Of a stretch of 64,000 nt of DNA, positions 7,189-64,000 are shown piece by piece (within the stretch, counting starts at the first letter, position 1; every line of letters starts with the position of its first letter). Source of the DNA: Thiomonas sp. X19 (GTDB taxonomy: Bacteria > Pseudomonadota > Gammaproteobacteria > Burkholderiales > Burkholderiaceae_C); the NCBI RefSeq assembly GCF_900089495.1, contig NZ_LT605203.1:1118058-1182057 (forward strand). The letters are read 5' to 3'. The notes beneath the pieces were generated by a model. The model was not told where the DNA came from. It saw only the letters and a program-made list of their open reading frames with translations, and ran no database searches. The position numbers and the translations under genes were made by a program.

Positions 7189-9741
7189 TCAGACGGCGGC
7201 CGTGCTGGTGCTGGCGCCGGCGACCGGCTCGAAAGGCTGCGTCGCCGACACTCCGGCGCGCACCGCCTCGATGGCGTCGAGGATGGCTTCGGGCGTGGCC
7301 GGAGCGCGCAGCGGCGGGTCGACGCGGTGGTCGCCCACGGCGGAGACGGCATCGCGGATCGCCAGCAGCACCGAAAACGACAGCAGCAGCGGCGGCTCAC
7401 CCACGGCCTTGGAGCGGTGGATGGTGGGCTGGGCGTTGGGGTTGTCGAACAGCGCGGTGTGCAGCAGCGGCGGGCAGTCGTTGGCGGTGGGAATCTTGTA
7501 GGTGCTGGGGGCGTGGGTGAGCAGCAAGCCAGTCTCAGGAAAACGCCGGGCCGCCCCAAGTTCTCCTGACCCCCGCGTGGGGCCTGACGCCTCAGCGGCA
7601 GGTTTGGGGGCACATTCCTGCCGCCAGACGAGTTCTTCCATCGTCAACCACCCCATGCCCTGGATGAAGGCGCCTTCGATCTGGCCGATGTCGATCGCCG
7701 GGTTCAGCGACTTGCCGGCGTCGTGCAGGATGTCGGCGCGCAGCAGGCGCCATTCGCCGGTGAGCGTGTCCACCAGCACTTCGCTCACGGCCGCGCCGTA
7801 GGCGAAGTAGTAGAACGGGTGGCCGGTCAGGGTTTGCGCATTCCAGTGCAGATCGGGCGTGGTGTAGAAGCCGTCACTCCACAGCTGCACGCGGGCCAGG
7901 TAGGCCTGTTGCACCAGCGTGGCGAAGGGCAGCGTCGTGGCGCCCGCATGCACCTGGCCGCCGCTGAAGCGCACCTGCTCGGCACGGCCGCCGTAGCGGT
8001 CGGCGGCGAACGCGGCGAGGCGCTGACGCAGCGTGGATGCGGCGTCCAGCGCCGCCATGCCGTTGAGGTCGGCCCCGGTGGACGCAGCGGTGGCCGAGGT
8101 ATTGGCCACCTTGTGGGTGTCGGTCGCGCTGCAACGCACGGCGGCGAAGTCCACCCCCAGTTCCTGCGCCACGACCTGCGCCACCTTGGTGTTCAGGCCC
8201 TGGCCCATTTCGGTGCCGCCGTGGTTCACCAGCACGCTGCCGTCGGCGTAGACATGCACCAAGGCGCCCGCCTGGTTCAGATGCGGCACGTTGAAGGAAA
8301 TGCCGAATTTCACCGGCGTCAGCGCCAGCCCTTTTTTCAGCACCGGGCTGCGGCTGTTGAAGGTGGCCACTGCGGCGCGGCGGGCGGCGTAGTTCGCGCT
8401 TGCGGCAAGTTGGTCCACCAGCGGCCCGATGACGTTGTCGGTCACGCCCTGGCCGTAAGGCGTGACATGGCGCTGGCCGACGCCGTAGAAGTTGGCGCGG
8501 CGCACCTCCAGCGGGTCGCGCCCCAGCTTGCGGGCGATGGAGTCGAGCACGAACTCGGTGACCAGCGCGCCCTGCGGGCCGCCGAAGCCGCGAAACGCGG
8601 TGTTGCTCTGGGTGTTGGTCTTGGCCGCATGGCCGTGAATGGCGACGTTGGGCAGCCAGTAGGCGTTGTCCACGTGGCAGATGGCGCGGGTGACGACGGC
8701 GCCCGAGAGGTCGGCCGAGTGCCCGGCGTTGGCGATCAGGGTCACGTCGTAGGCGAGGATGCGCCCGGCGTCGTCGAAGGCCACCTCATGGTCATAGTCG
8801 AAGCCGTGGCGCCGGCCGGTGATGAGAAAGTCGTCGTCGCGGTCCAGGCGCAGCTTCACCGGGCGCTGCAGCTTGTGCGCCGCCAGCGCCGCGCAGCAGG
8901 CGAACTGCGCCGACTGCGACTCCTTGCCGCCGAAGCCCCCGCCCATGCGGCGGCATTCCACCTGCACCTGATGCTGCATCCAGCCCAGCATATGCGCCAC
9001 CACATGCTGCATTTCGCTCGGGTGCTGGGTGGAGCACAGCACGCGCATGCCGGCGTTCTCGGTGGGCATGGCGTAGGCCACCTGGCCCTCCAGATAGAAC
9101 TGTTCCTGCCCGCCCACGCTGAAGCTGCCGCGCAGGCGGTGCGGCGCTGCAGTCATGGCCTGTTGCAGCGCGCCGCGCCGGGCCTCGCGGCGCAAGTGCA
9201 TGGAAGGAAGCACGTAATGGCCTTGCGCGTGCGCCTCGCGGGCCGTCAGCACGGCGGGCAGGGGCTCGGCGCGAATCACCTCGCGTGCTTGGGCCGCGGC
9301 ACGCCGCGCCAGCTCCTGCGATGCAGCCACCACCAGGAACACCGGCTGGCCGAAATAGCGCAAGTCGCCTTCGGCCAGGATGGGGTCGTCGTGCATCACC
9401 GGGCCGCAATCGTTCGTGCCCGGAACATCGTTCGCCGTGTACACCGCCACCACGCCGGGCAGGGCGCGAATGCGGTCCACATCCACCCCCAGCAACCTGC
9501 CGTGCGCCAGCGGCGAAAGCCCCAGCGCCGCATGCAGCGTGCCGGCGAGTTCGGGCGTGTCATCGGTGTAGGTGGCCTGGCCGCTCACATGCAGATGGGC
9601 CGATTCGTGCGGCGGGCTCACACCCACGCGGGCGCCCTCGCGCAGCGCCGGCCACTCGGCCTCGGCCCAGGCGGGGGTGCCGTGGCGGGCAAAGCCCGGG
9701 GTGGCGGGAGGGGCCGGCAGGGGGTCGCGGGGTTTGTTCAT
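7189..9741 (-). CDS. xdhB: Xanthine dehydrogenase, molybdopterin-binding subunit
   Basis: An 850-residue large subunit that oxidises hypoxanthine/xanthine at the Mo centre. It shows the a/b hammerhead region (GQATYTDDTPELAGTLHAAL), GGQEQFYLEGQ, RRMGGGFGGKE, TAFRGFGGPQ and the C-terminal KAVGEPPLLL whose Glu is the catalytic base. The family is usually about 780 residues. The excess lies largely at residues 710-737, where a dispersed repeat (nt 7533-7612) adds a Pro/Gly/Ala/Arg peptide just before THAPSTYKIPT. It is 9 bases after xdhA and forms one operon with it. Confidence 0.95.
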   Translation of the reverse strand: MNKPRDPLPAPPATPGFARHGTPAWAEAEWPALREGARVGVSPPHESAHLHVSGQATYTDDTPELAGTLHAALGLSPLAHGRLLGVDVDRIRALPGVVAVYTANDVPGTNDCGPVMHDDPILAEGDLRYFGQPVFLVVAASQELARRAAAQAREVIRAEPLPAVLTAREAHAQGHYVLPSMHLRREARRGALQQAMTAAPHRLRGSFSVGGQEQFYLEGQVAYAMPTENAGMRVLCSTQHPSEMQHVVAHMLGWMQHQVQVECRRMGGGFGGKESQSAQFACCAALAAHKLQRPVKLRLDRDDDFLITGRRHGFDYDHEVAFDDAGRILAYDVTLIANAGHSADLSGAVVTRAICHVDNAYWLPNVAIHGHAAKTNTQSNTAFRGFGGPQGALVTEFVLDSIARKLGRDPLEVRRANFYGVGQRHVTPYGQGVTDNVIGPLVDQLAASANYAARRAAVATFNSRSPVLKKGLALTPVKFGISFNVPHLNQAGALVHVYADGSVLVNHGGTEMGQGLNTKVAQVVAQELGVDFAAVRCSATDTHKVANTSATAASTGADLNGMAALDAASTLRQRLAAFAADRYGGRAEQVRFSGGQVHAGATTLPFATLVQQAYLARVQLWSDGFYTTPDLHWNAQTLTGHPFYYFAYGAAVSEVLVDTLTGEWRLLRADILHDAGKSLNPAIDIGQIEGAFIQGMGWLTMEELVWRQECAPKPAAEASGPTRGSGELGAARRFPETGLLLTHAPSTYKIPTANDCPPLLHTALFDNPNAQPTIHRSKAVGEPPLLLSFSVLLAIRDAVSAVGDHRVDPPLRAPATPEAILDAIEAVRAGVSATQPFEPVAGASTSTAAV
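7533..7612. repeat. Dispersed GC-rich repeat, copy A, in frame in xdhB
   Basis: About 80 bp with the family landmarks GGGCCGCCCCAAGTT and GACCCCCGCGTGGGGCCTGA, then GCGGCAGGTT. It aligns nearly end to end with the copy at 63385-63466, and both are translated in the same frame on the minus strand. It keeps the xdhB frame open between two conserved blocks. Confidence 0.8.
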
Positions 9742-9750
9742 CTGTCCTCC

Positions 9751-11481
9751 TCAAACCGCGCGCAGGGCTGGCGCCAGGCCGGCCCAGACGCTGGTTTGCG
9801 CTGGGCTCAAAGGCGCGTCGGCCCGGGTCTCCAGCCAGAAGCGCCACAGCAGGTTGCGCGCCACGCGCTGGCGGTGGGCGCTGCTGGCGCGCAGATCGCT
9901 GATGGGTTGGAAGTCGGCGTCCAGCGCCTGCATCGCGGCGCGCACGCTGGCCTCGTTCCAGGGCTGGCCGAGCAGCGCGGCTTCGGCGCTGGCGGCGCGT
10001 TTGACCACTGCCGCCATCCCGCCGAAAGCCAGGCGCACATGGGCCACTTGCTGTTGCGCATCCAGCCGTAGCGCCACGCCGCAACTCAGCGCGGAGATGT
10101 CGCAGTCGTAGCGTTTGGACAGCTTGTAGGCACGAAGCTGCAGCGGTTGAGCTTCATCCGCGTTTGTCGGCAGTGGCAGCTCGATGGCGCGCAGGAACTC
10201 GCCCGGCTGCAGCGCGTTTTTCATGTAGTCGAGATAAAACGCGGCCAGCGGCAGGCGGCGGGTGGCGTTGCCATGTTGCAGCAACAGCACCGCGTCCAGC
10301 GCCAGCAGCACCGGGGCGCCGTCGCCGATGGGCGAGCCGTTCGCCACGTTGCCGCCCAGGGTGCCGGCATGGCGCACCGGGGGGCCTGCGAAGCGCAGCG
10401 CCATTTCGCGCAGCTCCGGCCAGGTTCGCACCAGCGCGGCCCAGGCATCTTCCAGCGGCACGGCAGCGCCGATGCGCAGGGTGTCGCCGGCGCGCTCGAT
10501 GGTCGCGAGTTCGGCGACGCCGCCGATGAAGAGCAGATCGCCGACGTCGCGGAACTGCTTGTTGGTCCACAGGCCGATATCGGTGGCGCCCGCAAGGACG
10601 GTGAGCCTCCGGCCGCTTGCAGCGTCCGCCCGCCGAGGGGGCTGCGGCGTCGCCTTGAGGCGGCTCGGCGCCGACGCCGTGGCTGGCGCCGAATCACCAC
10701 GCGCATTCGCCCGCAGCGAGGCAAAGGCGCGCAAGCTGCGCGGGGCGATGAAGCGGTCGATGCGCGGCCGGCCCTCCGAGTCCGGGAAGGCTGGATGTGG
10801 CGCGGCGTAGATGTAGGGGTCGGGCGTGTCGGCGGCGATGCCTCGCAGCAGCGCGGCGATGGGCTCGGGGTCGAGGCGGGCGGCGGGCAGCGCGAACATG
10901 GCAAGGCCTGCATCCAGGATGGGGCGGTAGCCGGTGCAGCGGCAGAGGTTGCCGGAGAGGTCGTCGGCAAGTTGCTGGCGGCTGGGCCGGGTGCCGGTTT
11001 GCTGGTGGCGTTCGTAGCTTGCGTAGAGCGCCATGACGAAACCGGGCGTGCAGAAGCCGCATTGCGAACCGTGACAATCGACCATGGCCTGCTGCACCGG
11101 GTGCAGCGCGCGGCCGGGTGCCAGCGCCTGCAGGTCTTCCACCGTGAGCAGGGCCTTGCCGTGCAGCGTGGGCAGGTAGCGGATGCAGGCGTTGACCGGG
11201 CGCAGGCGCAGCGGGCCGAGCTGAACGGCGCGGCTGTCGACCCTGGCATCGGCGTTGGCGCAGGTCTCGCCGGACGTGCCGTTGCCCGGCTTGGAGCTCG
11301 CGTGCGCCAGCTCGGCCACCACCACGGTGCAGGCGCCGCAATCGCCTTCGGCGCAGCCTTCCTTGGTGCCGGAGCAGTGGGCATGTTCGCGCAGCCATTG
11401 CAGCACGGTGGTGGTGACGGGCAGGCCGTCCACCTGGGCCAGGCTGCCGCGGTGGACGAAGCGGATGGGTTGGGTGTTCAT
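9751..11481 (-). CDS. xdhA: Xanthine dehydrogenase, FeS/FAD subunit
   Basis: A 576-residue small subunit. The N-terminal plant-type 2Fe-2S domain has GTKEGCAEGDCGAC (38-51). The second 2Fe-2S domain has CGFCTPGF and LCRCTGYRPI. The FAD-binding domain has LTVLAGATDIGLW, GGNVANGSPIGD and the CO-dehydrogenase-type C-terminal domain. Between the FeS and FAD parts (about 259-299) lies a Ser/Ala/Pro/Arg linker that looks repeat-derived. A shorter Gly/Ala-rich loop follows the first cluster. It heads the xdhABC operon, divergent from the LysR gene. Confidence 0.95.
   Translation of the reverse strand: MNTQPIRFVHRGSLAQVDGLPVTTTVLQWLREHAHCSGTKEGCAEGDCGACTVVVAELAHASSKPGNGTSGETCANADARVDSRAVQLGPLRLRPVNACIRYLPTLHGKALLTVEDLQALAPGRALHPVQQAMVDCHGSQCGFCTPGFVMALYASYERHQQTGTRPSRQQLADDLSGNLCRCTGYRPILDAGLAMFALPAARLDPEPIAALLRGIAADTPDPYIYAAPHPAFPDSEGRPRIDRFIAPRSLRAFASLRANARGDSAPATASAPSRLKATPQPPRRADAASGRRLTVLAGATDIGLWTNKQFRDVGDLLFIGGVAELATIERAGDTLRIGAAVPLEDAWAALVRTWPELREMALRFAGPPVRHAGTLGGNVANGSPIGDGAPVLLALDAVLLLQHGNATRRLPLAAFYLDYMKNALQPGEFLRAIELPLPTNADEAQPLQLRAYKLSKRYDCDISALSCGVALRLDAQQQVAHVRLAFGGMAAVVKRAASAEAALLGQPWNEASVRAAMQALDADFQPISDLRASSAHRQRVARNLLWRFWLETRADAPLSPAQTSVWAGLAPALRAV
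10585..10705. repeat. Possible degenerate dispersed repeat in the xdhA linker
   Basis: A GC-rich stretch containing GCCGAGGGGGCTGCGGCG, with inverted GGCGCCGACG/GGCGCCGA elements. It encodes the low-complexity linker between the FeS and FAD domains of XdhA. Resemblance to the better copies is only general, so membership is a weak inference. Confidence 0.35.
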
Positions 11482-11569
11482 CGACGTTTCAGTGCAACAA
11501 GGCGCAGGTGATGTTGCAAGTGGGGTGCCGCAAGTATTGGGCCACGATCCGACAGGGTTGACATATGCT

Positions 11570-11582
11570 GAACTGTATACAA
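11570..11582. promoter_or_regulatory. Candidate purine-regulon operator in the xdhA/lysR intergenic region
   Basis: GAACTGTATACAA, with an 8-bp palindromic core TGTATACA, between the divergent xdhA and lysR genes. The exact reverse complement occurs at 17850-17862 before the BMP gene. A TTGACA hexamer sits 7 bp to its left. The binding protein is unknown: the adjacent LysR is a candidate, but the core also resembles GntR-type sites. Confidence 0.6.
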
Positions 11583-11619
11583 AACATACGTTTCGGCTGA
11601 TGCCGCAAAGGGCTGCACC

Positions 11620-12552: not shown

Positions 12553-12697
12553 GCCCGCCCCCAGCCCCGGCTTCAACCCTGACAACCCCATCGCAACAAC
12601 CGAACTGCCGCGACCCCGATCGACTTCGTTCCACACGTGCGAAGCACCGAAGTACAAGTGCCATAACCCCAATTCCCTTCCACCGAATTCCATCGCC

Positions 12698-14110: not shown

Positions 14111-14124
14111 ACACGACACCCACC

Positions 14125-15808
<1,684 letters not shown>

Positions 15809-15822
<14 letters not shown>

Positions 15823-17795: not shown

Positions 17796-17849
17796 GCCGG
17801 GCCGGGTAGTGCTTTGGGCGCATGGTCCTGTCACACCTTGGCACGAAAA

Positions 17850-17862
17850 TTGTATACAGTTC
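17850..17862. promoter_or_regulatory. Candidate purine-regulon operator upstream of the BMP gene
   Basis: TTGTATACAGTTC is the exact reverse complement of the site at 11570-11582. It lies 28 bases before the BMP start codon, in the only sizeable gap between the transporter genes and the binding-protein gene. It suggests a separate promoter here under the same control as xdh/lysR. Confidence 0.6.
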
Positions 17863-17890
17863 ATGTCACACCATCACTCGGAGAGCGCAG

Positions 17891-18979: not shown

Positions 18980-19022
18980 GCGGCGGGGCCAGGGTCGGAC
19001 GAGGCGCGGTTCAGGGGCCAAT

Positions 19023-20087: not shown

Positions 20088-20096
20088 TGGCGTCGA

Positions 20097-20256: not shown

Positions 20257-20940
20257 TCATGGATTCGCGGGCGTCGCTTGCCGGTCCGCCTGAGCGCCTT
20301 GTTGGGTGCGCCTGAAACTCGGCTTATAAATAGCGAGAAGAAAAGCGACCGCAAGCATGAGAAAGTTGGCTATTCCATACAGGTCTTCTTGGGTCTTGAG
20401 CGGCATGTAAGTCGGCAGAAGCTGACCCTGCGCTGCGCTTTGCCCGGCAATGCTGGTCACTTGACTGACCAACGGAGCGAGGATGAAGGTGCCGTTTATG
20501 AGGATCAAAGTGGCCAGCACGAGCTTGGCGATGAGCCATCGATGTTCAACAAGACGGTACTTTCCTGCGAGCGCTGTCAGGCCACCTGCGATGATCAGAA
20601 CCCACATGCCGGGAATCGTCAGCGCCCGAGTGATCGCCGACACAAACAGCCGCTGATGATCGATAAGCACCACGTCGGTGCTCGTCCCAACCTCTGAGAG
20701 GGTGTGAACAAATCCGCCATGCCCGCTCATCCCGCCCAAACGGCCCCACTCGGCGTTGCCAATGCGCGCCGTGCCGTCAGGCACGGCCGTGCTTGGCGCC
20801 TTGATTGGAACCGTTTGGGCGCCCTGCTCCGCCACGCCGGATTCATTCACACCCTCTGAGTTCATGACGATCGACGGTAGGATGCCTCCCAAAAACATGG
20901 CGAGGCCAATGAGGTGCAGCAATTTTGCGGTCTTTTTCAC
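20257..20940 (-). CDS. DUF2269-like integral membrane protein with in-frame MITE insertion
   Basis: A 227-residue protein. Helix 1 (LLHLIGLAMFLGGILPSIVM) is followed by a hydrophilic loop, then helices around ITRALTIPGMWVLIIAGGL, LIAKLVLATLILINGTFILA and YGIANFLMLAVAFLLAIY. The layout resembles DUF2269 proteins; function is unknown. The GTG start has a strong AGGAG site. About 54 residues of the first loop are encoded by a 162-bp insertion; removing it restores MNSE-VGTSTDVVLIDHQRLF. It probably belongs to the MarR operon. Confidence 0.72.
   Translation of the reverse strand: MKKTAKLLHLIGLAMFLGGILPSIVMNSEGVNESGVAEQGAQTVPIKAPSTAVPDGTARIGNAEWGRLGGMSGHGGFVHTLSEVGTSTDVVLIDHQRLFVSAITRALTIPGMWVLIIAGGLTALAGKYRLVEHRWLIAKLVLATLILINGTFILAPLVSQVTSIAGQSAAQGQLLPTYMPLKTQEDLYGIANFLMLAVAFLLAIYKPSFRRTQQGAQADRQATPANP
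20691..20860. mobile_element. MITE-like 162-bp insertion with terminal inverted repeats
   Basis: Ends 20694-20718 and 20836-20860 are inverted repeats with 21 of 25 positions matching (AGGGTGTGAACAAATCC against GGTGTGAATGAATCC). CCTCTGAG occurs in direct orientation at 20691 and 20853, as an 8-bp target duplication would. Net insertion is 162 bp, exactly 54 codons, so the host frame is preserved. There is no internal transposase. An inner hairpin CGTGCC/GGCACG lies near 20769-20784. Confidence 0.7.
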
Positions 20941-22558: not shown

Positions 22559-23817
22559 ATGTCACAAAACCTCAGTCGCAGGCGGCTGCTCGCCGGCCTC
22601 GCGTCTGCCGGCGCCGCGGCGCCCCTCGCCCGGGCGCAAAACCACCCACCCGGTTCGCCGGCAGCGATTCGCGAGCCGCTGCGCGTGGCCTTCGTCTACG
22701 TCAGCCGATCGGCGCCACGGGCTGGACGGCGCAGCACGAAAAGGGCCGGCTGCACATGCAGCGGGCGCTGGGCGATGCCGTGCGCAGCCGCCACGTGGCC
22801 AACGTGCCCGAGGGGCCGGACGCCGAGCGCGTGGTGCGCGAGCTGGCGCGCCAGGGCGAGCAGCTTATCTTCACCACCAGCTTCGGCTATATGGAGTCCG
22901 TGCTGCGCGTCGCGCGCGACTACCCTGGCACCCGCTTCGAGCAATGCTCAGGCTACAAGCTCGCCGCCAACGTCGGCGCCTACAACGGCCGCTTCTACCA
23001 GGGCCGCTACCTGGCAGGCATGGTGGCCGGGCACATGAGCCTGCAGGGCCGCCCCAAAGGCGAATTCCCTCCAGGAGGGACGGCGCGCAGCGCCCAGGGA
23101 GTCGAGTCCGTCCTGCAGGGCCGCCCCAAAGGCGAATTCCCTCCAGGAGGGACGGCGCGCAGCGCCCAGGGAGTCGAGTCCAGCAGGCGCGGCGTGGCCG
23201 GCATGGTGGCGTCGTTTCCCATTCCCGAAGTCATCCAGGGCATCAACGCCTTCACGCTGGGCATGCGCGCCGTCAACCCCGAGGCGCGCATGAAGGTGGT
23301 GTGGGCGAACACCTGGTACGACCCCGGCCGCGAGGCCGACGCGGCGCGCGCGCTGATCGCCCAGGGCGCGGAGGTGCTGACCCACCACACCAACTCCCCG
23401 GCCGCCGTGCAGGTGGCGCAGGAGGAGGGCCGCTGGGCGGTGGGCTATTGCAGCGACGAGGCGCAGTTCGGCCCGCGCGCCCAGCTCACCGCCGTCACCC
23501 TGCACTGGGGCGACTTCTACGTGGGCACGGTGCGCGAGGCGCTGGCGGGGCGCTGGAAGCCGGACAACGTCTGGGGCGGGATGGGCCAGGGCTTCGTGCG
23601 CCTGGCGCCGTTCCTTCCGGCAGTGCCCGAGGCCGTGCGGCGGCAGGTGCTGGCACGCCAGCGCGACATCGCCCAGGGCCGCTTCCAGCCCTTCTCGGGC
23701 CGCATCCTGGACAACCGCGGCGGCGTGATGCTCGACGGCGGAGCCATGAGCGATGCGCAGATCCAGGCGATGAACCGCTACGTGATGGGCGTGGACGGCG
23801 AGCTTCCGCGCGCCTGA
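22559..23817 (+). pseudogene. Second BMP-family binding protein gene, frameshifted and carrying a tandem repeat insertion
   Basis: The N-terminus has a twin-arginine-like signal (LSRRRLLAGLASAGAAAPLA) and then VAFVYVS. The frame is lost at about 22704: one extra base would restore PIGATGWTAQHEKGRLHMQRAL, after which the BMP protein continues to 23817. Compared with the intact paralogue (17891-18979), two 69-bp repeats add about 48 residues between AGHMS and GVAGMVASFPIPEV. With the frameshift it is probably non-functional unless the base is a sequencing error. It has no transporter genes beside it. Confidence 0.8.
23041..23181. repeat. Tandem pair of 69-bp in-frame repeats (period 72 bp)
   Basis: Copies 23041-23109 and 23113-23181 are identical, each starting CTGCAGGGCCGCCCCAAAGG and ending GTCGAGTCC, separated by three bases, so the period is 24 codons. 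The opening matches the GGGCCGCCCCAAG landmark of the dispersed family, and the encoded QGRP matches the copy in the DUF934 gene. Confidence 0.85.
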
Positions 23818-30720: not shown

Positions 30721-30882
30721 TAGGGCCTGTTCACGCTATTTCTTCACCTGCGACGGGGGACTGGGCAGCGCATTGCGGCGTTGTCGGTCTTGGCAAGGGT
30801 TCACCCTTGCCGGCGCCCTCCGCCTTGCAGCCATCCCCGTCTGGGGGCAACGCAGGTGGAGAAATGGCGTGAACAGGCCCTA
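30721..30882. mobile_element. 162-bp MITE with 32-bp terminal inverted repeats
   Basis: Left end TAGGGCCTGTTCACGC... (30721-30752) and right end ...GCGTGAACAGGCCCTA (30851-30882) match as inverted repeats at 30 of 32 positions. An inner hairpin GGCAAGGGT/ACCCTTGCC lies at 30791-30810. GAT flanks both sides, and the ends are TA...TA, so a short 2-3 bp target duplication is possible. No transposase gene lies inside. The end sequence recurs at 37594-37610. Confidence 0.8.
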
Positions 30883-50309: not shown

Positions 50310-50351
50310 GGCAAGGGCTAGTCTTGCAGACTCTGGCTTCACGACAAAAAC

Positions 50352-51728: not shown

Positions 51729-51768
51729 CGCCTGCGGCCTTGCCGCTGCCTGTGAACTCCGCGCCGGC

Positions 51769-53012: not shown

Positions 53013-53230
53013 GCTCGTCTCCTTGCTTGCGCAATGCCAGTGGGGCGGGAATCGGCGCATCCGGTCGACTTCAAGCCCAACCCTGCGCCGCCGGGCCCGC
53101 CTGGAGGGCAGGAACCGACGCTCGGCGCCGCGGCCTTATATCGTCTGGCATCTAACGGTATGAGAAGACTGTACTTCGGTTTGGCGTGATCCATCCCTAG
53201 GATGTTTGCAACCTTTGCCACAACGTTGCC

Positions 53231-53998: not shown

Positions 53999-54003
53999 GC
54001 GCC

Positions 54004-55872
54004 ATGTACCAGTACACCGATTTCGACCGCCGCTTCATCCGCGCCCGCGCCGCCCAATACCGCGACCAGCTCGAACGCCATCTCGCCGGCAGCCTGGGCG
54101 GCGAGGAGTTCAAACCGCTGCGCCTGCAAAACGGCTGGTACATCCAGCGCCATGCGCCCATGCTGCGCGTGGCCATTCCCTACGGTGCGCTGGCGAGCCA
54201 GCAACTGCGCGCCCTGGCCGACATCGCCGAGGAGTTCGACCGTGGCTACGGCCACTTCACCACGCGCCAGAACCTGCAGTACAACTGGATCGCCCTGGCC
54301 GACAGCGCCGACGTCATGGACCGCCTCGCCGCGGTGGACATGCACGGCATCCAGACCAGCGGCAACTGCGTGCGCAACATCAGCAGCGATGTGTTCGCCG
54401 GCATCGCGCCGGATGAAATCGTCGATCCGCGGCCGTTCTGCGAGATCCTGCGCCAGTGGAGCACCCTGCACCCCGAGTTCGCCTACCTGCCGCGCAAGTT
54501 CAAGATCGCCGTGAGCGGCGCGCGCGAAGACCGCGTCGCCGCCGGCTGGTACGACATCGGCCTGCAGGCGCTGAGCGACGACGACGGCCAGATCGGCTTT
54601 CGCGTGCAGGTGGGCGGCGGCATGGGGCGCACGCCGATGATCGGCGCCGTCATTCGCGACTTTCTGCCCTGGCAGCAGTTGCTGGTGTACGTCGAGGCCA
54701 TCCTGCGCGTCTACAACGGCTATGGGCGGCGCGACAACATCTGGAAGGCGCGCATCAAGATGCTGGTGAAGGCCGAAGGCGCGCGCTTCACCGAGGCCGT
54801 CGAGCGCGAGTTCGCCGACATTCTGCAGCGCGATCCGGGCGGCGCCGCGCACCTCATCACCCTGCATGAATTCAACCGCGTGGCTTCGCAGTTTGCGCCG
54901 CCGCACGGTGTGGGGCCGGATGCGTCGGATGCTCCGGACGCGTCCGCTGCCCTTGCCACCGGGCCCGCGCACGAGCCGGCGTACCTGCGTTGGCTGCAGC
55001 GCAACGTGCACACGCACCGTGTCCCCGGCTTGCGCGCCGCGACCCTGTCGCTCAAGCGCGCGGGCCAGGCGCCCGGCGACGTCACGGCGCAGCAGATGCG
55101 CGCCGCCGCCGACCTCGCCGAGCGCTACAGCCACGGCGAACTGCGCGTGAGCCACGAGCAGAACCTGGTGCTGCCCTGGGTCAGCGCTGCCGCCCTGCAT
55201 GCGCTGTGGCGGGATGCGCGGGAAGCCGGCTTCGCCACGCCCAACATCGGCCTGCTGACCGACATGATCGCCTGCCCCGGCGGCGATTTCTGCTCCCTGG
55301 CGAATGCCCGCTCCATTCCCATCGCGGCCGCCATCACCGAGCGCTACACCGACCTCGACGAGCTGTTCGACATCGGCGACATCGACCTCAACATCAGCGG
55401 CTGCATCAATTCCTGCGGCCATCACCACAGCGGCCACATCGGCATCCTCGGTGTCGACAAGGACGGCGCCGAGTGGTACCAGATCACCGTCGGCGGCGGC
55501 GATGGCTCGGAGGTTGGTGGCGCAGCCTCGCCCGGCAAGATCATCGGCCCCTCGTTCGCGGCCGAGGAAGTGCCGGATGTGGTCGAGGCGCTGATCGCCC
55601 TGTATCTGCGGCAGCGCCAGCCCGGCGAGCTGTTCGTGGCCTTCGCCCGCCGCGTCGGTGCGCAGCCGTTCAAGGCTGCGGCCGATGCCGTGCGCCGCGC
55701 GACCGCGACACCGGAACACCCCCAGGCCGCTGCCTCGCAGTTAACCGCCGCCGAAGATGATGCGAAGGTTGCGGGCGGCGGCTCGGTTTCGCATGAGCGC
55801 CCCCAAGGTCGGCTCGCCGACCCGCCCCCCGTGGGGGTCGAGTCAACTTGGGGCGGCCCCGCCTTTCCTTGA
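54004..55872 (+). CDS. cysI: Assimilatory sulfite reductase hemoprotein subunit
   Basis: A 622-residue siroheme/4Fe-4S reductase. Blocks are RGYGHFTTRQNLQYNWIALA, TSGNCVRNISSDVFAGI and VQVGGGMGRTPMIGAVIRDF, then the cluster ligands CPGGDFCSLANARS and NISGCINSCGHHHSGHIGIL. An Ala/Asp-rich insert sits near residue 305. The last 26 residues (from about 597) are encoded by a dispersed repeat that also supplies the TGA stop. It reduces sulfite to sulfide, with electrons probably from the FNR-type reductase downstream. Confidence 0.93.
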   Translation: MYQYTDFDRRFIRARAAQYRDQLERHLAGSLGGEEFKPLRLQNGWYIQRHAPMLRVAIPYGALASQQLRALADIAEEFDRGYGHFTTRQNLQYNWIALADSADVMDRLAAVDMHGIQTSGNCVRNISSDVFAGIAPDEIVDPRPFCEILRQWSTLHPEFAYLPRKFKIAVSGAREDRVAAGWYDIGLQALSDDDGQIGFRVQVGGGMGRTPMIGAVIRDFLPWQQLLVYVEAILRVYNGYGRRDNIWKARIKMLVKAEGARFTEAVEREFADILQRDPGGAAHLITLHEFNRVASQFAPPHGVGPDASDAPDASAALATGPAHEPAYLRWLQRNVHTHRVPGLRAATLSLKRAGQAPGDVTAQQMRAAADLAERYSHGELRVSHEQNLVLPWVSAAALHALWRDAREAGFATPNIGLLTDMIACPGGDFCSLANARSIPIAAAITERYTDLDELFDIGDIDLNISGCINSCGHHHSGHIGILGVDKDGAEWYQITVGGGDGSEVGGAASPGKIIGPSFAAEEVPDVVEALIALYLRQRQPGELFVAFARRVGAQPFKAAADAVRRATATPEHPQAAASQLTAAEDDAKVAGGGSVSHERPQGRLADPPPVGVESTWGGPAFP

Positions 55873-55875
55873 GGA
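55792..55875. repeat. Dispersed GC-rich repeat, copy D, forming the 3' end of cysI
   Basis: On the minus strand it reads TCAAGGAAAGGCGGGGCCGC, CCCAAGTTGACTCGACCCCC and ends TTGGGGGCGCTC, matching the copies in the DUF934 gene. The TGA within CCTTGAGGA at its edge is the cysI stop codon. Confidence 0.8.
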
Positions 55876-55884
55876 GTTCCGCGC

Positions 55885-56652
55885 ATGAAATTCATCACTT
55901 CCGAAGACGGCGCCCGCGCCGCCACAGACCCGGCGCCGGGCGCAGGCGGGCATCACGTGTTCACGCCCGGGCAGTGGCAAACGGCCGCCACGACCTGGCC
56001 GACGCATGAGCCCGCCGGACTGGTGCTTCCCAACGACCTCGACGTGCGCGCACTCGCCATCGATCTGTCGCGCTTCGCCAGCGTCGACCTGCAGTTCCCG
56101 AAATGGACCGATGGCCGCGCCTATTCCCAGGCCCGGTTGTTGCGAGTGCGCCTGGGCTACCGCGGCGAGCTGCGCGCCACCGGCGATGTGCTGGTGGACA
56201 TGGCGCTGCCGCTGGCGCGCACCGGGTTCGACACCGCGGTGCTGCGCCCCGGCCAGAGCCTGCAGGCCGCGCAGCGGGCACTGCGGTTTTTCGAGGGGCT
56301 GTTGCCGGAGTTCGACGGCGCTCTCAAGGAAGCGCAAGCGCAGGGCCGTCCCCAAGTTGACTCGACCCCCACGGGGGGCGGGGCGGCGCGCCGCCCCTGG
56401 GGCGCTCATGAGGAAGCGCAGGGCCGCTCCCCAGTTTCCTCGACCCCCTCGGGGGGAGTCCGCTTGCGGACTGATGGGGGCGCTCCGAGGCAACCGAGCC
56501 CGCATCCGCAGCCCGCCTACTACCAGGGCGACGTGCTCGATCCGCATCCGCTGTTTCTGAAACGGCCCCCGGGAGCGGCCAGCCGGCCTGTCCCGCGCAA
56601 GGGTGAAGCAAACCCGGGGTGGCCTGGCGTTGTCCTGGAAGCCGCCGCATGA
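55885..56652 (+). CDS. DUF934 protein enlarged by repeat insertions
   Basis: A 255-residue member of DUF934, a family of about 170 residues found with cysI/cysH and thought to assist sulfite reductase. Conserved parts: LVLPNDLDVRALAIDLSRFA, FPKWTDGRAYSQARLLRVRL, YRGELRATGDVLVDMALPLA and, far downstream, YYQGDVLDPHPLF. Between FEGLLPEFDGAL and AYYQGDV two repeat copies add about 56 residues, and a third fragment builds the C-terminal tail. It overlaps cysH by 4 bases. Confidence 0.88.
   Translation: MKFITSEDGARAATDPAPGAGGHHVFTPGQWQTAATTWPTHEPAGLVLPNDLDVRALAIDLSRFASVDLQFPKWTDGRAYSQARLLRVRLGYRGELRATGDVLVDMALPLARTGFDTAVLRPGQSLQAAQRALRFFEGLLPEFDGALKEAQAQGRPQVDSTPTGGGAARRPWGAHEEAQGRSPVSSTPSGGVRLRTDGGAPRQPSPHPQPAYYQGDVLDPHPLFLKRPPGAASRPVPRKGEANPGWPGVVLEAAA
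56322..56410. repeat. Dispersed GC-rich repeat, copy C1, in the DUF934 gene
   Basis: TCAAGGAAGCGC, a short duplication, GGGCCGTCCCCAAGTTGAC, CGACCCCCACGGGGGGCGGG, a GGCGCGCC-centred palindrome, then TGGGGCGCTCATGAG. Best complete match to copy D on the opposite strand. Read here in the plus frame as QGRPQVDSTPTGGG. Confidence 0.82.
56411..56490. repeat. Dispersed GC-rich repeat, copy C2, directly after C1
   Basis: AGGAAGCGCAGGGCCGCTCC, CCAGTTTCCTCGACCCCCTC, GGGGGGAGTCCGCTTGCGGA, then GATGGGGGCGCTCCGAGG. Same orientation and same reading frame as C1, so the pair is a tandem array. Confidence 0.82.
56600..56640. repeat. Dispersed repeat fragment, copy C3, opposite orientation
   Basis: Read on the minus strand it gives CCAGGACAACGCCAGGCCAC and CCCGGGTTTGCTTC, a diverged half of the element as seen in copy A. 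It encodes the final residues of the DUF934 protein. Confidence 0.5.
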
Positions 56653-58465: not shown

Positions 58466-59868
58466 TGAACACGCCCAACGACGCCAGCAGCGAACACCGC
58501 CACAAAGCGCTGCGCTTTCTCACCGCCGGCAGCGTGGACGACGGCAAGAGCACGCTGATCGGCCGCCTGCTGCTCGACAGCCGCGCCATCCTGGCCGACC
58601 AGCTCGACGCCCTGCAACGCCGGGCCGCGGGCGGCAGCATCGACCTGTCCCAACTCACCGACGGGCTGGAGGCCGAACGCGAGCAGGGCATTACCATCGA
58701 CGTGGCCTACCGCTACTTCGCCACGCCGCGGCGCAAGTTCATCATCGCCGATGCCCCGGGGCACGAGCAGTACACGCGCAATATGGTGACGGCCGCCGCC
58801 GGCAGCGATGCCGCGGTGGTGCTGATCGACATCACCAAGCTCGACTGGCGCGCCGCTCCCCTGCGCCTGCTGCCGCAAACCCGGCGCCACACCTTGCTGG
58901 CGCGCTTGCTGCGCTTGCCGTCCATCGTTTTCGCCGTGAACAAGCTCGACGCCGTGGACGATGCCGAGGCCGCGTTCGCGGCGGTGCGCGATGCGCTGCT
59001 GGACTTCGCCGCCGAGGCCGGCATCGCGCCCGCCGGCATCGTGCCGGTGTCGGCGCTGCGTGGCGACAACATCGCCATCGCCTCGACGTCCTGGCCTTGG
59101 TATGCCGGGCCGACCCTGTTGCAATGGCTCGAAGCCCTGCCCGCCGCCGAGGAGCCGCAGACCGGCGCCCTGTTGCTGCCGGTGCAATACGTGGCGCGCG
59201 AGGGCGACGGCCTGGGCCACCAGCCGCGCACGGTCTGGGGCCGCATCGCCAGGGGCCGGGTCCAGTCCGGCGACAAGATCCGCATCCACCCCAGCGGCGA
59301 GAGCGCCGAGGTCGTCGCGGTGCGGCGTGCGGGAGTCGCCGTCGATGGCTGCGCCGCCGGCCAGTCGGCCGGACTGGTGCTCGACCGCCAGGTTGATGTC
59401 TCGCGCGGTGACTGGGTCACGGGCTTGGAGCCGGTGCAGGCTGGTGAAGCGGCCGTCAAACCCGGGGACGCGCAGCGCCACCAGCCGCCAGAGTCGGCCG
59501 CGACTCCCCAGGCCGAAGTTTCCTCGGCCCCATCGCGGACTTCCGGGGGCACGCAGGAGTTCGGCGCCACCCTGGCGTGGCTGGATACCGAGCCTGCGGC
59601 CATCGGCCGCAAGTACTGGCTGCGCCACGGCCACCGTTGGGTGGCGGGGCGCATCACGGCCATCTCCAGCCGCCTGGACATCCACACCCTGGCGGACGTC
59701 GACGCGCAGACGCTCGCGGTCAACGACATCGGCTGCGTGCGCCTGCAGGTGCAGTCGCCGCTGCCGCTGGAGATCTACGCCGACAACCGCGTGGCCGGGG
59801 CGATGATCGTCGTCGACCCCGCCACCCACCGCACCAGCGGCGCGCTGATGGTCGAGGCGCTGGCATGA
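58465..59868 (+). CDS. cysN: Sulfate adenylyltransferase subunit 1 (GTPase)
   Basis: A 467-residue translational-GTPase-fold subunit. P-loop AGSVDDGKST (21-30), switch I region EREQGITIDVAYRYF, G3 DAPGHEQYTRNM, and NKLD (VFAVNKLDAVD). It lacks a fused CysC kinase, as fits APS reductase use. A Pro/Ser/Ala insert of about 35 residues (331-365) lies between LEPVQAGEAA and FGATLAWLDTEP, possibly repeat-derived. Starts on the cysD TGA (TGATG). Confidence 0.94.
   Translation: MNTPNDASSEHRHKALRFLTAGSVDDGKSTLIGRLLLDSRAILADQLDALQRRAAGGSIDLSQLTDGLEAEREQGITIDVAYRYFATPRRKFIIADAPGHEQYTRNMVTAAAGSDAAVVLIDITKLDWRAAPLRLLPQTRRHTLLARLLRLPSIVFAVNKLDAVDDAEAAFAAVRDALLDFAAEAGIAPAGIVPVSALRGDNIAIASTSWPWYAGPTLLQWLEALPAAEEPQTGALLLPVQYVAREGDGLGHQPRTVWGRIARGRVQSGDKIRIHPSGESAEVVAVRRAGVAVDGCAAGQSAGLVLDRQVDVSRGDWVTGLEPVQAGEAAVKPGDAQRHQPPESAATPQAEVSSAPSRTSGGTQEFGATLAWLDTEPAAIGRKYWLRHGHRWVAGRITAISSRLDIHTLADVDAQTLAVNDIGCVRLQVQSPLPLEIYADNRVAGAMIVVDPATHRTSGALMVEALA
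59455..59560. repeat. Possible diverged dispersed repeat in cysN
   Basis: Contains GACTCCCCAGGCCGAAGTTT, then CCTCGGCCCCATCGCGGACT and CCGGGGGCACG. The order of landmarks follows the family (GGGCC, AAGTTTCCTCG, CCCC, GGGGGC), but divergence is high. It encodes a non-conserved insert. Confidence 0.45.
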
Positions 59869-59902
59869 CGCGCGCCACGCCGCGAGCACGCGGAGCGCAC
59901 TG

Positions 59903-60841
59903 ATGGGTCGCATCGCCTTCATCGGTGCCGGCCCGGGCGCTGCCGATCTGATCACCCTGCGCGGTGCCCGCCTGCTGGGCCAGGCCGACGTGGTCTTGAG
60001 CGACGCCCTGGTCGATCCGGCCCTGCGCGACCTGGCGCCGCAGGCGAGGTGGATCGACGTTGGCAAGCGCGGCTTTCGCGGTGGCGCGACGCAAGCCATG
60101 ATCAACGCCCTGCTGCTGCGCCATGGTCGGGCGCAGGCCCTGGTGGTGCGGCTCAAAGGCGGCGACCCCAGCATCTTCGGCCGGCTGGAAGAGGAGTTGC
60201 AGGCCGTTGCCGCCGCCGGCCTACAGGCCGAGGTCGTGCCCGGAGTCACCGCCGCGCTGGCCGCGGCCGCAGATACGCGGCTGCCGCTCACGCGGCGCGG
60301 GCATGGACGCAGCATCAGCCTGAGCACGGCCATGACCGCTGAGCGCCCCCAGGCCGCCGCTGTGCCGCGGCCGTCCCCCGAGGGGAATGAGCATGGACCA
60401 GCGAACAGGCGTGTGCCCGTTCGCGCGCCAGGCGAATGGCCTCGACGCATGCTCTGCGCCGAGCCTCCCGAGAAAACTTGGGGCGGCCCGGCGTGTTCTC
60501 ATGACGGCGCGGCACCCGCCAGCCGCAGCGCCGACACCGAAGTGTTCTACATGGCCGGGCGGCAACTCGCCACCTTGGCGCGCCAGCTCATGGCGGCCGG
60601 CTGGCCGGCCGCGACGCCAGCCAGCGTCGTGTCGCGCGCGGGCTGCGCCGACAGCCTGCACAGCGCCCACCTGCTGGCCGAACTCGGACAGGCGGCGATG
60701 CTGCACCAGGGCCGCCCCACGGTGGTCATCGTCGGCGCCGGCGCCGGCCATCCGGACCCGCTGGGCCCATGCGGCGCGGCGCGGCCTGCAGCTCAAACAG
60801 AACCCCACCAACCCCACACCAACCCACTTCAAAACGACTGA
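59903..60841 (+). CDS. cobA: Uroporphyrinogen-III C-methyltransferase (SUMT) with repeat insertion
   Basis: A 312-residue methyltransferase for siroheme, the cofactor of CysI. The family blocks are [38 protein letters not shown] and [20 protein letters not shown], then [14 protein letters not shown] and, downstream, [36 protein letters not shown] is usually about 260 residues. A repeat adds about 56 residues (145-200) between STAMT and [11 protein letters not shown]. The CysG oxidase/ferrochelatase part is not in the window. Confidence 0.92.
60335..60503. repeat. Dispersed GC-rich repeat, copy E, with a nested palindrome
   Basis: On the minus strand: TGAGAACACGCCGGGCCGCC, CCAAGTTTTCTCGG at one end and GGCCTGGGGGCGCTCAG at the other, matching copies A and D. 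The centre is replaced by about 70 bp of nested inverted repeats (GAGCATG/CATGCTC outer arms near 60388-60455; GCGAACAGGC/GCCCGTTCGC inner arms). All in frame in the SUMT gene. Confidence 0.75.
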
Positions 60842-60845
60842 CACC

Positions 60846-61970
60846 ATGGACATGCATGTCGACCCAGCCATTGCGCATCTCAGCCAACAGCACGCCAACC
60901 ACGACGCCAACCACCGCACCCCTCCCATCGAGACCGACGCCGTCATCATTGGAGCCGGCCCGGTGGGCCTGTTCCAGGTGTTCGAGCTGGGGCTGCTGGA
61001 GATCAAGGCCCATGTCATCGACAGCCTGCCGCACCTGGGCGGCCAGTGCGTCGAGCTCTACCCCGACAAGCCCATCTACGACATCCCCGCCGTGCCCATG
61101 TGCACCGGCCAGCAGCTCACCGACAGCCTGCTGCAGCAGATCGCCCCCTTTCACCCCACGTTTCATCTCGGCCAGGACGTCACCGAGCTGCAGCGCCAGC
61201 ACGACGGCCGCTTCCTGGTGCGCACCTCCAAGGACACCACCTTGCGCACCAAGACCGTGTTCATCGCCGCCGGCGTCGGCTCGTTCCAGCCCCGCCCCCT
61301 GAAGGTCGAGGGGATCGAGCCCTTCGAGGGCACGCAGCTGTTCTACCGGGTGAAGAGCCCGGGCGCCTTCGCCGGCCAGCATCTGGTGGTGGTGGGCGGC
61401 GGCGACTCGGCGCTGGACTGGGCCCTGCACTTCGCCCAGAGCGAGGAGCACCGCGCCCAGAGCGTGGTGCTGATCCATCGCCGCGACGGCTTTCGCGCCG
61501 CCCCGGCCTCGGTGGCGAAGATGCACGCGCTGTGCGAGCAGCATGCCATGCAATGCGTCGTCGGCCAGATCAGCGGCTTCGAGCAGCGCCAGGGGCGGCT
61601 CACCGAGATCAAGCTCACGGGCAACGACGGCATCACCCGGCGCCTGCCGCTGGATGTGCTGCTGGTGTTCTTCGGCCTGTCCCCCAAGCTCGGCCCCATT
61701 GCCCACTGGGGGCTGGAGCTGGAGCGCAAGCAGCTGAAGGTGGACACGGAGAAGTTCGAGACCAATGTGCCGGGCATCTTCGCCGTGGGCGACATCAACA
61801 CCTATCCGGGCAAGAAAAAGCTCATCCTCTCGGGCTTTCACGAGGCGGCGCTGGCGGCGTTCGGCGCCGCGCACACCATCTTCCCGGAGAAGAAGATCCA
61901 TCTGCAGTACACCACCACCAGCCCCAAGCTGCATCAGGTGCTGGGGGTCGAGTCGCCGGTCTTCGACTAG
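60846..61970 (+). CDS. Ferredoxin-NADP reductase (thioredoxin-reductase-like)
   Basis: A 374-residue flavoprotein: [20 protein letters not shown] (FAD, GAGPVG at 36-41), [40 protein letters not shown] (NADPH), [20 protein letters not shown] and [20 protein letters not shown]. Redox-active CxxC of thioredoxin reductase is absent, as in the TrxR-like FNR class. As the last gene of the sulfur cluster it is the natural electron donor chain to CysI, by inference. Confidence 0.92.
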
Positions 61971-61981
61971 GTCGTGCTCCG

Positions 61982-62015
61982 AAGGAAGCGCAGGGCAGCG
62001 GCAAGCTTGGCCGCT
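61982..62015. repeat. Truncated dispersed repeat / possible terminator between convergent genes
   Basis: AAGGAAGCGCAGGGC resembles the family opening, followed by the imperfect palindrome AGCGGCAAGCTTGGCCGCT (61997-62015). Lies between the convergent reductase and DUF488 genes. Confidence 0.45.
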
Positions 62016-62031
62016 CCTGGCGCGCGCCTCG

Positions 62032-62385
62032 TCAAGGCTTGCGCAGGTAGTCGGCCAGGACGATGGCGTGATTGTGGGCCTCGTCCTTGGCGGCGTACAG
62101 CAGCGTGACCTGCTTGTGCTCCTGGAGCAGGCGGCGCATCAGTCCCACGGTTTCGGGCATGGCGTCCAGCTCGGCGACGTAGCGGCGCCGGAATTCGTCC
62201 CACCTCGCGGCGTCGTGGCCGAACCACTGTCGCAACGCCGGGCTCGGCGCGATCTCGCGCACCCAGCGGTCCGCCGCGGCCTCGTCCTTGCCCAGTCCTC
62301 GCGGCCACAGCCGGTCGACCAAAAGGCGCAGGCCGTCGGCTGCCGTCGCGGGCTCGTAGACCCGCTTGATGTCGATTCGTGTCAT
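62032..62385 (-). CDS. DUF488 family protein
   Basis: A 117-residue YeaO-like DUF488 protein: IKRVYEPATAADGLRLLVDR, LWPRGLGKDEAAADRWVREI, APSPALRQWFGHDAARWDEF and a final LLYAAKDEAHNHAIVLADYL. The family is very common, of unknown biochemical role. The start follows conserved length. Confidence 0.92.
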   Translation of the reverse strand: MTRIDIKRVYEPATAADGLRLLVDRLWPRGLGKDEAAADRWVREIAPSPALRQWFGHDAARWDEFRRRYVAELDAMPETVGLMRRLLQEHKQVTLLYAAKDEAHNHAIVLADYLRKP

Positions 62386-62424
62386 CGTCCCTCTCCCATG
62401 CTTGGAGTGTTCGATGTCCGCATG

Positions 62425-62553
62425 CTAAGACGCCATCGGATCGCCGTGTTGGGTCGGTGCGGCGATGGCCGTGCGCGGATCAGGGTCGGCTTCCGGCACG
62501 AGTTCTTCCTCCAGGCGCTGCAGCGTGTCGTGGCCCTCGGCTGGAGCGTCCAT
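62425..62553 (-). CDS. Possible 42-residue small protein
   Basis: MDAPAEGHDTLQRLEEELVP then EADPDPRTAIAAPTQ, acidic. It begins 5 bases after the DUF2905 stop, so translational coupling is conceivable. No ribosome site or known family is visible; it may be chance. Confidence 0.25.
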   Translation of the reverse strand: MDAPAEGHDTLQRLEEELVPEADPDPRTAIAAPTQHGDPMAS

Positions 62554-62558
62554 GCGTT

Positions 62559-62750
62559 TCAGCGCAGCAAGCGCGCCATCACCCAGGCGAAGATGGACAG
62601 CAGCAGGGCGGAGCCGAGGGGGAACAGCCATTCGCGGCCGAAGGCCTGAAAGCGCAGGTCCAGCGGCAGGCGGCCGAAGCCGAAACGTTCCAGGTAAGGC
62701 AGCAGCGCCGAGACCACGATGGACGCGAGGATGAAGACGAACAGCCACAT
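62559..62750 (-). CDS. DUF2905 small membrane protein
   Basis: A 63-residue protein with two hydrophobic helices (MWLFVFILASIVVSALLPYL at the N-terminus, FPLGSALLLSIFAWVMARLL at the C-terminus) flanking GRLPLDLRFQAFGREW, the DUF2905 signature. Function unknown. Its ATG overlaps the methyltransferase stop (TGATG), giving coupled translation. Confidence 0.88.
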   Translation of the reverse strand: MWLFVFILASIVVSALLPYLERFGFGRLPLDLRFQAFGREWLFPLGSALLLSIFAWVMARLLR

Positions 62751-64000
62751 CAAGGTGGCCCCTCGGCTGCGTCGTGCAGGGCGAGCGCGGCGCGGCGGTC
62801 TCCTTGATCAAAGCCCATGAGCGGTGCGTGCAGGCCGCGCCCGAGGGCGATGACCTTGAACAACTCGCCCATTTCGGCCTCCGACAGCAGCTTTTGCACT
62901 GCCGCGGTCTGGGCCAGGCCGGCGCGGCTGCGGGGCGCCCCGCTCTCGCCTTGCTGCCCGGCGGCAACGGCGGCGCCGAGCAGGTCCAGCAGGCCGCAGT
63001 TGAGCAGGAAGCGCGCCTGCGAGGTGTAGCCCAGCAGCTCCAGCCCCGCTTGCGCGGCGATTTGGGCGATGCCGCTGAAGTTCACATGCGCGGTGATGTC
63101 GGAGGCGCCCGGCTGCCACAGCGGATCGTCGTGGGCGCGGTGGGCGCGGTGGCAGCGCAGGGTGCCGCCACTGCGCTGCGGGTGGTCGTACTCGTGGGCG
63201 GGAAAACCGTAGTCGATGAACAGCAGCAGGCCACGGCCGAGGTGTTCGGCCAGCGTGCTGATGAAGGCTTCGGCGGCCTGGTGGATTTCGGTGACGGCCC
63301 CCAGCGGCAGCGCCCGCATGCTCGGACGCGGCGCGACGCCGGTCGCGCGCTCGGCCCAGGCGAGGGGTTGTTCCGTATCGTTGTTCTCAAGGAAACGCTG
63401 GGCCGCTCCCGAGTTTCCTTGACCCCCTCGGGGGGCCTGACGCGAAGCGGCAGGTTCGGGGGCGGTCACAACGACGCCACGCTCGATCCAACCCTGCTGC
63501 GTGCGCAGCGCGAGTTTCACCGGCATGGCGTCCAGCACCTCGTTGCCGATGACCACGGCGTCGAAGCATGCGGGCAGGGCGTCCCACCAGACGACGCGCT
63601 CGCGCAAGGTCGCGGGCAGCGTGGCCACGGCTTCCTGCTGGCGCGCACGCATGGCGGCGGAGACTTCGACGATGGCGTACTGCGCCGGCAGCCAGCCCTC
63701 GGCGTGGAGTGCAGCCAGCAGGTCGCAGGCCAGGCGGCCGCTGCCGGCGCCGAATTCCACCACGGTGGCGAGCCCCTCGACCTGCGCCGCCGCCGCCACC
63801 TGTCGGGCGAGTGTCGCGGCGAACAGCGGCGTGAGTTCGGGGGCGGTGACGAAGTCGCTGCTGCCGCCCCAGGCGCCCAGCACCCCGGGCGCGGCGGCGT
63901 AATAGCCCAGGCCCGGGGCATACAAGGCCAGTTCCATGTAGCGGTCGAAAGGCAGCCAGCCGCCGGCTTCGGCAATGGCTTGCTTGATGCATGCGAGCAA
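62750..64000 (-). CDS. MidA/NDUFAF7-type SAM-dependent methyltransferase (5' end outside the window)
   Basis: At least 416 residues, running off the window's right edge; its true start is not visible. Blocks: ELALYAPGLGYYAA, DFVTAPELTPLFAATLARQV, VVEFGAGSGRLACDLLAALH (SAM site), VVIGNEVLDAMPV, LLLFIDYGFPAHEYDHPQRS and GTLRCHRAHRAHDDPLWQPG, then DITAHVNFSGIAQ. Members methylate protein arginine in complex I assembly in mitochondria. About 27 residues (178-205 from the window edge) come from a dispersed repeat. Confidence 0.9.
   Translation of the reverse strand: MLACIKQAIAEAGGWLPFDRYMELALYAPGLGYYAAAPGVLGAWGGSSDFVTAPELTPLFAATLARQVAAAAQVEGLATVVEFGAGSGRLACDLLAALHAEGWLPAQYAIVEVSAAMRARQQEAVATLPATLRERVVWWDALPACFDAVVIGNEVLDAMPVKLALRTQQGWIERGVVVTAPEPAASRQAPRGGQGNSGAAQRFLENNDTEQPLAWAERATGVAPRPSMRALPLGAVTEIHQAAEAFISTLAEHLGRGLLLFIDYGFPAHEYDHPQRSGGTLRCHRAHRAHDDPLWQPGASDITAHVNFSGIAQIAAQAGLELLGYTSQARFLLNCGLLDLLGAAVAAGQQGESGAPRSRAGLAQTAAVQKLLSEAEMGELFKVIALGRGLHAPLMGFDQGDRRAALALHDAAEGPP
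63385..63466. repeat. Dispersed GC-rich repeat, copy B, in frame in the methyltransferase gene
   Basis: TCTCAAGGAAACGCTGGGCC, GCTCCCGAGTTTCCTTGACC, CCCTCGGGGGGCCTGACGCG, AAGCGGCAGGTTCGGGGGCG. Nearly colinear with copy A in xdhB and translated in the identical frame, giving RxAPRGGQGNSGAAQRFLE-like residues. Confidence 0.82.

Follow-up and report, generated by a model that had tools for sequence, protein, structure and literature searches.

The best-known case of mobile DNA lying in frame within proteins is that of Rickettsia, whose members are obligate intracellular bacteria with reduced genomes. There, Rickettsia palindromic elements (RPEs) occur as dispersed palindromic repeats in frame in unrelated genes, with 44 insertions of elements of about 150 bp in R. 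conorii according to PMC10969869, which also covers miniature inverted-repeat transposable elements (MITEs), non-autonomous repeats of small size that in some cases are intragenic. Repetitive extragenic palindromes (REPs), grouped with REP-associated tyrosine transposases (RAYTs), are hairpin repeats of high copy number that are mostly intergenic, with a minority within open reading frames (ORFs), and intragenic GTAG and CGTC REPs are known (PMC3733652). PARCEL repeats, as described in PMC2996958, are units of about 25 residues encoded by dyad-symmetric DNA and arranged in tandem within ORFs; they form one protein motif, in ORFs without assigned functions. Here we describe a repeat with likenesses to each of these in a 64,000-nucleotide window of Thiomonas sp. 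X19 (contig NZ_LT605203.1, forward-strand positions 1,118,058 to 1,182,057) and in the rest of its genome. Its structured units form a new family, RPE-like in its working, that we do not assign to the RPE, REP/RAYT, MITE or PARCEL groups. We take it, at a probability of roughly three in four, to be structured, non-autonomous mobile DNA whose genic copies survive only in frame.

The likeness to RPEs is one of behaviour. A first-pass annotation of the window had drawn this parallel, and it holds functionally, through the in-frame hosts, with sequence relation to RPEs no part of it. The repeat differs from RPEs in belonging to a GC-rich betaproteobacterium and in having a 78–84-bp unit, three hairpins, a loop and tail that scarcely vary and, at one site, a 20-unit array. 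Although it shares tandem units of about 25 residues and dyad-symmetric coding DNA with PARCEL, it lies in conserved enzymes and is read in several frames, from both strands. MITEs are similarly short and sometimes intragenic, whereas here neither terminal inverted repeats (by eye) nor target-site duplication were seen. We found no description of the repeat family in the open-licence literature, a weak negative given that subscription papers were mostly outside the search.

The window is part of contig C3 of a 4.67-Mb genome in three contigs. Using a covariance model built from 14 copies, we scored the best 150 of 4006 candidates in this genome, so that the counts are floors: at least 149 matches at E ≤ 1 and at least 143 at E < 1e-3. 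A single window copy (copy D, below) returned 62 blastn matches at E ≤ 1. The dispersed family proposed in the first-pass annotation was thus borne out genome-wide by more than 140 matches, many outside the window and their number well above chance. Strand and replichore bias were absent (38 plus and 39 minus in one chromosome half, 22 and 21 in the other, with position 1 assumed near the origin). Units are mostly 78–84 bp long and contain three hairpins. Hairpin 1 pairs about TCAAGGAAAC with GTTTYCTTGA and encloses a nearly fixed loop of the GGGCCGC(T)CCC type; hairpin 2 pairs C-rich with G-rich arms (CCCCC with GGGGG); hairpin 3 is variable, and the 3′ tail, GGGGGCGCTC, is nearly fixed. The 14-copy consensus runs CTCAAGGAAACG...GGGGGCGCTC. 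A possible pseudoknot would join the loop (CGC.CCC) to the tail (GGGGGCG); its columns hardly vary, and position 180 changes without its partner changing.

The hairpins covary. Across 150 matches (141 distinct, related copies not being independent), two-sided changes occur at least once in every one of the 23 modelled pairs and 91.3% of cells are paired, with 439 compensated cells observed, where shuffling left 122 ± 7.5 and slid controls never exceeded 67. In a MAFFT alignment of the 14 copies, 7/23 pairs show two-sided changes, compared with 2.8 when shuffled and at most 3 when slid. RNA folding of single copies gave z-scores of −3.05 for copy B and −1.56 to 0.88 for six others; since these energies are mostly ordinary, the structure claim rests on covariation. 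The stems are equally paired at intragenic sites (0.909; 0.717 with shuffled partners) and elsewhere (0.913), and their letters vary widely. Such uniform pairing of variable letters would also arise if the covariation were unselected, through quasipalindrome correction, in which replication switches template between the two arms of a hairpin and so repeatedly rewrites one arm from the other. We think this origin of the stems somewhat improbable, although it deserves to be kept in view; arm correction leaves the nearly invariant hairpin-1 loop and 3′ tail unexplained.

Within the window, the copies and a second repeat lie as follows.

7534..7615, plus strand: copy A, of the 81-bp type, in frame in xdhB (66.3 bits)
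55795..55873, minus strand: copy B (70.8 bits), present also in relatives G011 and G001
56323..56407, plus strand: copy C, in the DUF934 gene, matched as C3:1174386-1174464 (53.7 bits)
56407..56485, plus strand: copy D, of the 78-bp type (97.1 bits), present in G011 and absent in G001
60341..60503, minus strand: copy E, a decayed dimer, in frame in the SUMT gene (59903-60841)
63386..63467, plus strand: copy F, in frame in midA (62750-64000, minus strand; 76.4 bits)
23040..23181, plus strand: BMP pair, two identical 70-bp blocks at 72-bp spacing, in frame in the second BMP gene

Model or alignment matches place copies A, B, C, D and F about where the first-pass annotation had put them, and the in-frame location of A, E and F in their hosts was confirmed; C and D lie inside the DUF934 gene (called at 55885-56652). 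The xdhB gene occupies 7189-9741 on the minus strand; the insert of copy A forms residues 712-739 of ORF 7192-9750, inside a Pfam MoCoBD_2 match (448-760). Copy F likewise supplies residues 178-205 of ORF 62753-64000, inside a Methyltransf_28 match (64-326). Copy C lies directly upstream of copy D, and their centres differ. Copy E stands as an in-frame insert in the SUMT gene; it yields two partial model matches (27.2 and 26.4 bits) and a net 162 bp, or 2 × 81, as a decayed dimer would. Copy B does not lie inside cysI as had been claimed: the cysI frame terminates within it, at 55872, with the following gene beginning at 55885, 12 bases past the stop, so that copy B comprises the end of cysI and the spacer. 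At window positions 55861-55880 the edge of copy B supplies the cysI stop codon and part of the GAGGAG preceding the next start codon.

The BMP pair had been taken for a variant of the family. It scores 17.0 bits (E = 0.72) against the family model and has only a 15–16-base core in common with many copies; it is a second, different, 72-bp-spaced repeat, unsupported as a family member. Partial relatives of this second repeat adjoin a family copy in L078 (L078:1822-1868; also L146:3942-4003) and in G011. Two further long inverted repeats lie at window positions 20694-20860 and 30721-30882 (58- and 32-bp arms) and are perhaps insertion-sequence ends or terminators.

Comparison with relatives revealed occupied and empty forms of the same sites. 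In an ATP-binding cassette (ABC)-transporter gene the net insert is 78 bp, and the site is empty in 4/4 relatives compared (G023, G001, G016, G011). A nasA-type gene carries a net 246 bp, or three units, relative to G023 and G001. Copies C and D together add a net 162 bp to the DUF934 gene relative to G001 and 81 bp relative to G011, which has D alone and lacks C; G001 lacks C too. Copy E adds 162 bp relative to G011, G020, G021, G336 and G017, all empty, and is present in G001. At an acyl-CoA dehydrogenase site (L096:1859-1939), 23/25 same-genus relatives show a net difference of 0, while G023 differs by 81 bp and G001 by 39 bp; the more distant relatives compared at this site are 73–76% identical homologues whose orthology is assumed. 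Among 11 homologues selected from 120 matches listed, occupied, partial and empty forms are mixed, and one empty form is 98% identical to the X19 protein; 19 MidA homologues, likewise selected from 120 listed, have 0, a remnant, 1, 2 or 3 units. Unit number also differs at mdcG, in the malonate decarboxylase operon. Here (L133:2432-4711; C3 about 2928931-2931210) 20 tandem units, 19 near-identical units of 26 residues and one degenerate, lie in an ORF of 759 amino acids, with joints alternating between GAGAGC and GTGAGC across much of the array; in the sequence portion compared, G023 has two clear units and one degenerate, and G001 one of each.

The inserts are poorly conserved between homologues, as would be expected if they were ordinary, fast-evolving linkers of unrelated origins. 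This explanation is refuted by the covariation and by more than 140 related DNA matches, mostly outside called genes, that have letters and structure in common. Orthologues lacking the segment at several sites also bear out the first-pass view that the segments are not ordinary conserved parts of proteins. The covarying hairpins, the tandem growth and the family-wide distribution lie beyond what that annotation could see.

To describe placement, neighbouring entries among 133 matches were merged into 120 sites, with the mdcG array as one entry; matches scoring below about 27 bits, shadows on the reverse strand and four further weak matches were excluded, and the BMP pair and one duplicated pair of sites were included. 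Under a strict test, which used codon scores on both flanks, 32/120 sites are in frame within one ORF, or 33/120 with the mdcG array (32/119 without the BMP pair), supporting the earlier claim of in-frame insertion into conserved genes. One further site is at an ORF edge; 20 lie between co-directional, 8 between convergent and 4 between divergent genes; and coding support was found on one side only at 37 sites and on neither side at 18, mdcG among them. A simple gene caller put 48/120 sites within genes, compared with 3986/5000 random positions, and 24 of the 72 sites outside called genes overlap a called gene end. The first-pass picture of copies belonging mainly to genes is therefore not supported (33/120 and 48/120 against about 80% of random positions); copies are depleted from genes about two-fold, yet still common there. 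The pattern was replicated in genome G088, from another genus, which has 45 matches at E ≤ 0.01: there 7/42 classified sites are intragenic in frame, compared with 941/1500 random positions. At 15 co-directional sites where the frames differ across the copy, a stop or start is found at the copy or close to it, the pattern of two neighbouring genes, and no clearly broken gene was seen by ORF geometry, as distinct from homology, at sites with two-sided support.

Intragenic copies lie opposite to the host gene in 18 cases and along it in 14 (BMP pair included). The commonest same-strand reading resembles QGNAGPPQVSLTP, and the opposite strand is read in three frames (given in words, as the frame table includes a few shadow or non-genic matches), in agreement with the first-pass report of several frames on both strands. 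One copy, L117, uses a frame that contains a stop in the consensus, and that stop is changed in L117. Subtracting one from the model span leaves a multiple of three in 20/25 intragenic copies compared with 32/77 other single copies (Fisher p = 0.001). This excess, together with the mixed frames, fits a filter acting after insertion and not a unit built for protein. The idea that the element itself was selected for multiples of three finds no support outside genes (32/77), and the first-pass suggestion that it was selected for being tolerated inside proteins is likewise not supported.

At co-directional intergenic sites, 17/20 copies are oriented against the flanking genes. Together with the strong covariation and the contribution of copy B to the cysI stop and the GAGGAG before the next start, this could indicate a cis-acting RNA element under host selection, for 3′-end stability or translation control, that spread by duplication. 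We judge that reading improbable: intragenic copies occur in both orientations and several frames, a copy is missing from relatives at several compared sites, and Rfam release 15 gave 0 matches for the window at gathering scores and for three element-bearing loci at E ≤ 1.

The 32 intragenic sites, together with mdcG, fall in 32 distinct ORFs. Of these, 30 match a Pfam family at E ≤ 1e-3 and two, L099 and L028, do not; the epimerase match falls under its curated cut-off, and the L029 and L116 ORFs were not counted as intragenic. By Pfam label, gene names beyond it being inferred, the hosts include MidA, XdhB, a SUMT-type methylase, an ABC ATPase, an AhpF-like reductase, asparagine synthase, a YjeF/carbohydrate-kinase protein, GlyQ, biotin ligase, orotidine monophosphate (OMP) decarboxylase, UvrA, PriA, urease alpha, Ham1, a resistance–nodulation–division (RND) pump, MdcG, two acyl-CoA dehydrogenase-type proteins and a PutA-like protein. 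Multi-unit hosts are a molybdopterin oxidoreductase with three units, MetE with two and a DUF2126 protein with two separate copies. Inserts fall within one Pfam match in, for example, MidA, XdhB, the AhpF-like reductase, urease alpha, OMP decarboxylase and the PutA-like protein. An AlphaFold model of MidA (20 sequences; mean predicted local distance difference test (pLDDT) score 74.1) has four segments below 50, at residues 27-52, 181-207, 274-295 and 407-414. The insert is residues 176-203 in this numbering, and the low segment at 181-207 lies between strands 168-176 and 211-217, so the insert is predicted to form a disordered loop; as three further segments also score below 50, disorder is not special to it.

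Beyond Thiomonas sp. X19, the repeat is found across its taxonomic family. When the best 15 candidates per genome were scored, at the cost of weaker matches, at least 86 of 299 genomes of the family and at least 51 of 141 sampled genera had matches at E ≤ 1e-6. An order-wide sample, with the best 11 candidates scored, gave at least 8/399 matching genomes: X19 itself, one from the same family and six from other families. Across 41 genomes, blastn matched 16 (X19 included), every one in the genus, and a pattern scan of named genomes recovered 37 stretches, including Ideonella azotifigens, Rubrivivax, Aquabacterium, Rhizobacter and Vitreoscilla records. Plasmid and phage collections held no match to one 157-base query.

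Small hairpin units, high copy number and depletion from genes recall REPs, intragenic examples of which are described in PMC3733652, and would suit a REP-type element mobilised on single-stranded hairpins by a Y1 transposase of the RAYT or IS200/IS605 kind. The X19 genome has one Y1_Tnp (RAYT-like) gene. It is bracketed by its own, different GGGGTCTGTCCCC-type repeats (L068:1128-1177, 1928-1987), and the 3336-base locus (L068) contains no family-model match at E ≤ 1. Among the 299 genomes, Y1 is present in 56/86 carriers of the element, which leaves room for it to act in certain lineages or to have acted formerly, but it is rarer in them than in non-carriers (166/213; Fisher p = 0.03, in the opposite direction), and the element-rich genomes G088, G203, G281 and G092 have no Y1 match at E ≤ 0.001. 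Neither GTAG nor CGTC occurs in the 14-copy consensus. The repeat thus differs from REP/RAYT systems in its longer unit, the missing tags, the lack of a positive Y1 association and its position away from the Y1 gene, and we consider Y1 mobilisation a poor candidate. Terminal inverted repeats were likewise not found by eye in the consensus and end profiles, the ends reading CTCAAGG and GGCGCTC.

We infer mobility because sites are empty in relatives and because unlike copies are adjacent, as are C and D, of which G011 has only D. In the scheme that we favour, non-autonomous mobile DNA would spread, at the level of DNA or of an RNA copy, to new chromosomal sites and beside existing copies, inserting independently of reading frame. 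Copies that break genes would be lost by selection, leaving copies between genes, at their ends or, in frame, in loops that tolerate them, and units at one site would then expand or contract in tandem, in genes by the in-frame amounts seen here. A more specific proposal, which we offer tentatively as a doubtful but possible one, is that the element is of a new kind: machinery that is neither Y1 nor a classical terminal-repeat transposase would recognise the fixed loop and tail presented on covarying stems, and the element would seed, expand and delete disordered loops in core enzymes throughout a whole betaproteobacterial family.

Several results count against mobile DNA filtered by selection. 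No mobiliser was found, the Y1 survey showing no positive association with the element, and 2–6-base words at many offsets around 116 copies gave no convincing target-site duplication. The strict classifier is insensitive, calling only 1557/3000 random positions intragenic, and the true genic share is uncertain, at about 27–40% by two methods. The 150-match structure count comes from an alignment that had itself been fitted to the model, a bias in the model's favour. At the nasA-type gene the net inserts are 201 bp relative to G011 and 255 bp relative to G336 and G018, with diverging flanks. G088, from another genus, also has 81 bp at the acyl-CoA dehydrogenase site (L170:5928-6008), so some copies may be old or may have moved with the gene; the shared site may reflect common ancestry, gene transfer or repeated insertion. 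Finally, a segment of at least 1650 bp occurs twice, identical and inverted (L021:1-1650, L022:1428-3077; C3 at about 585 and 385 kb), and includes one family copy near one of its ends, at the 3′ end of a 486-residue ORF. Two of the 120 sites are therefore one copy in a duplicated segment, and some copies spread by ordinary duplication.

Thiomonas is, to our knowledge, not an intracellular genus, and a 4.7-Mb Thiomonas genome carries in-frame, mobile-looking DNA in GlyQ (the glycyl-tRNA synthetase alpha subunit), biotin ligase and OMP decarboxylase. Because relatives hold empty and multi-unit alleles, the cost of such insertions and the origin of new protein segments become testable. The covarying stems with their nearly fixed loop and tail suggest what the missing mobiliser may recognise, and the family offers a new case of mobile-looking DNA adding pieces, as extra loops, to proteins.

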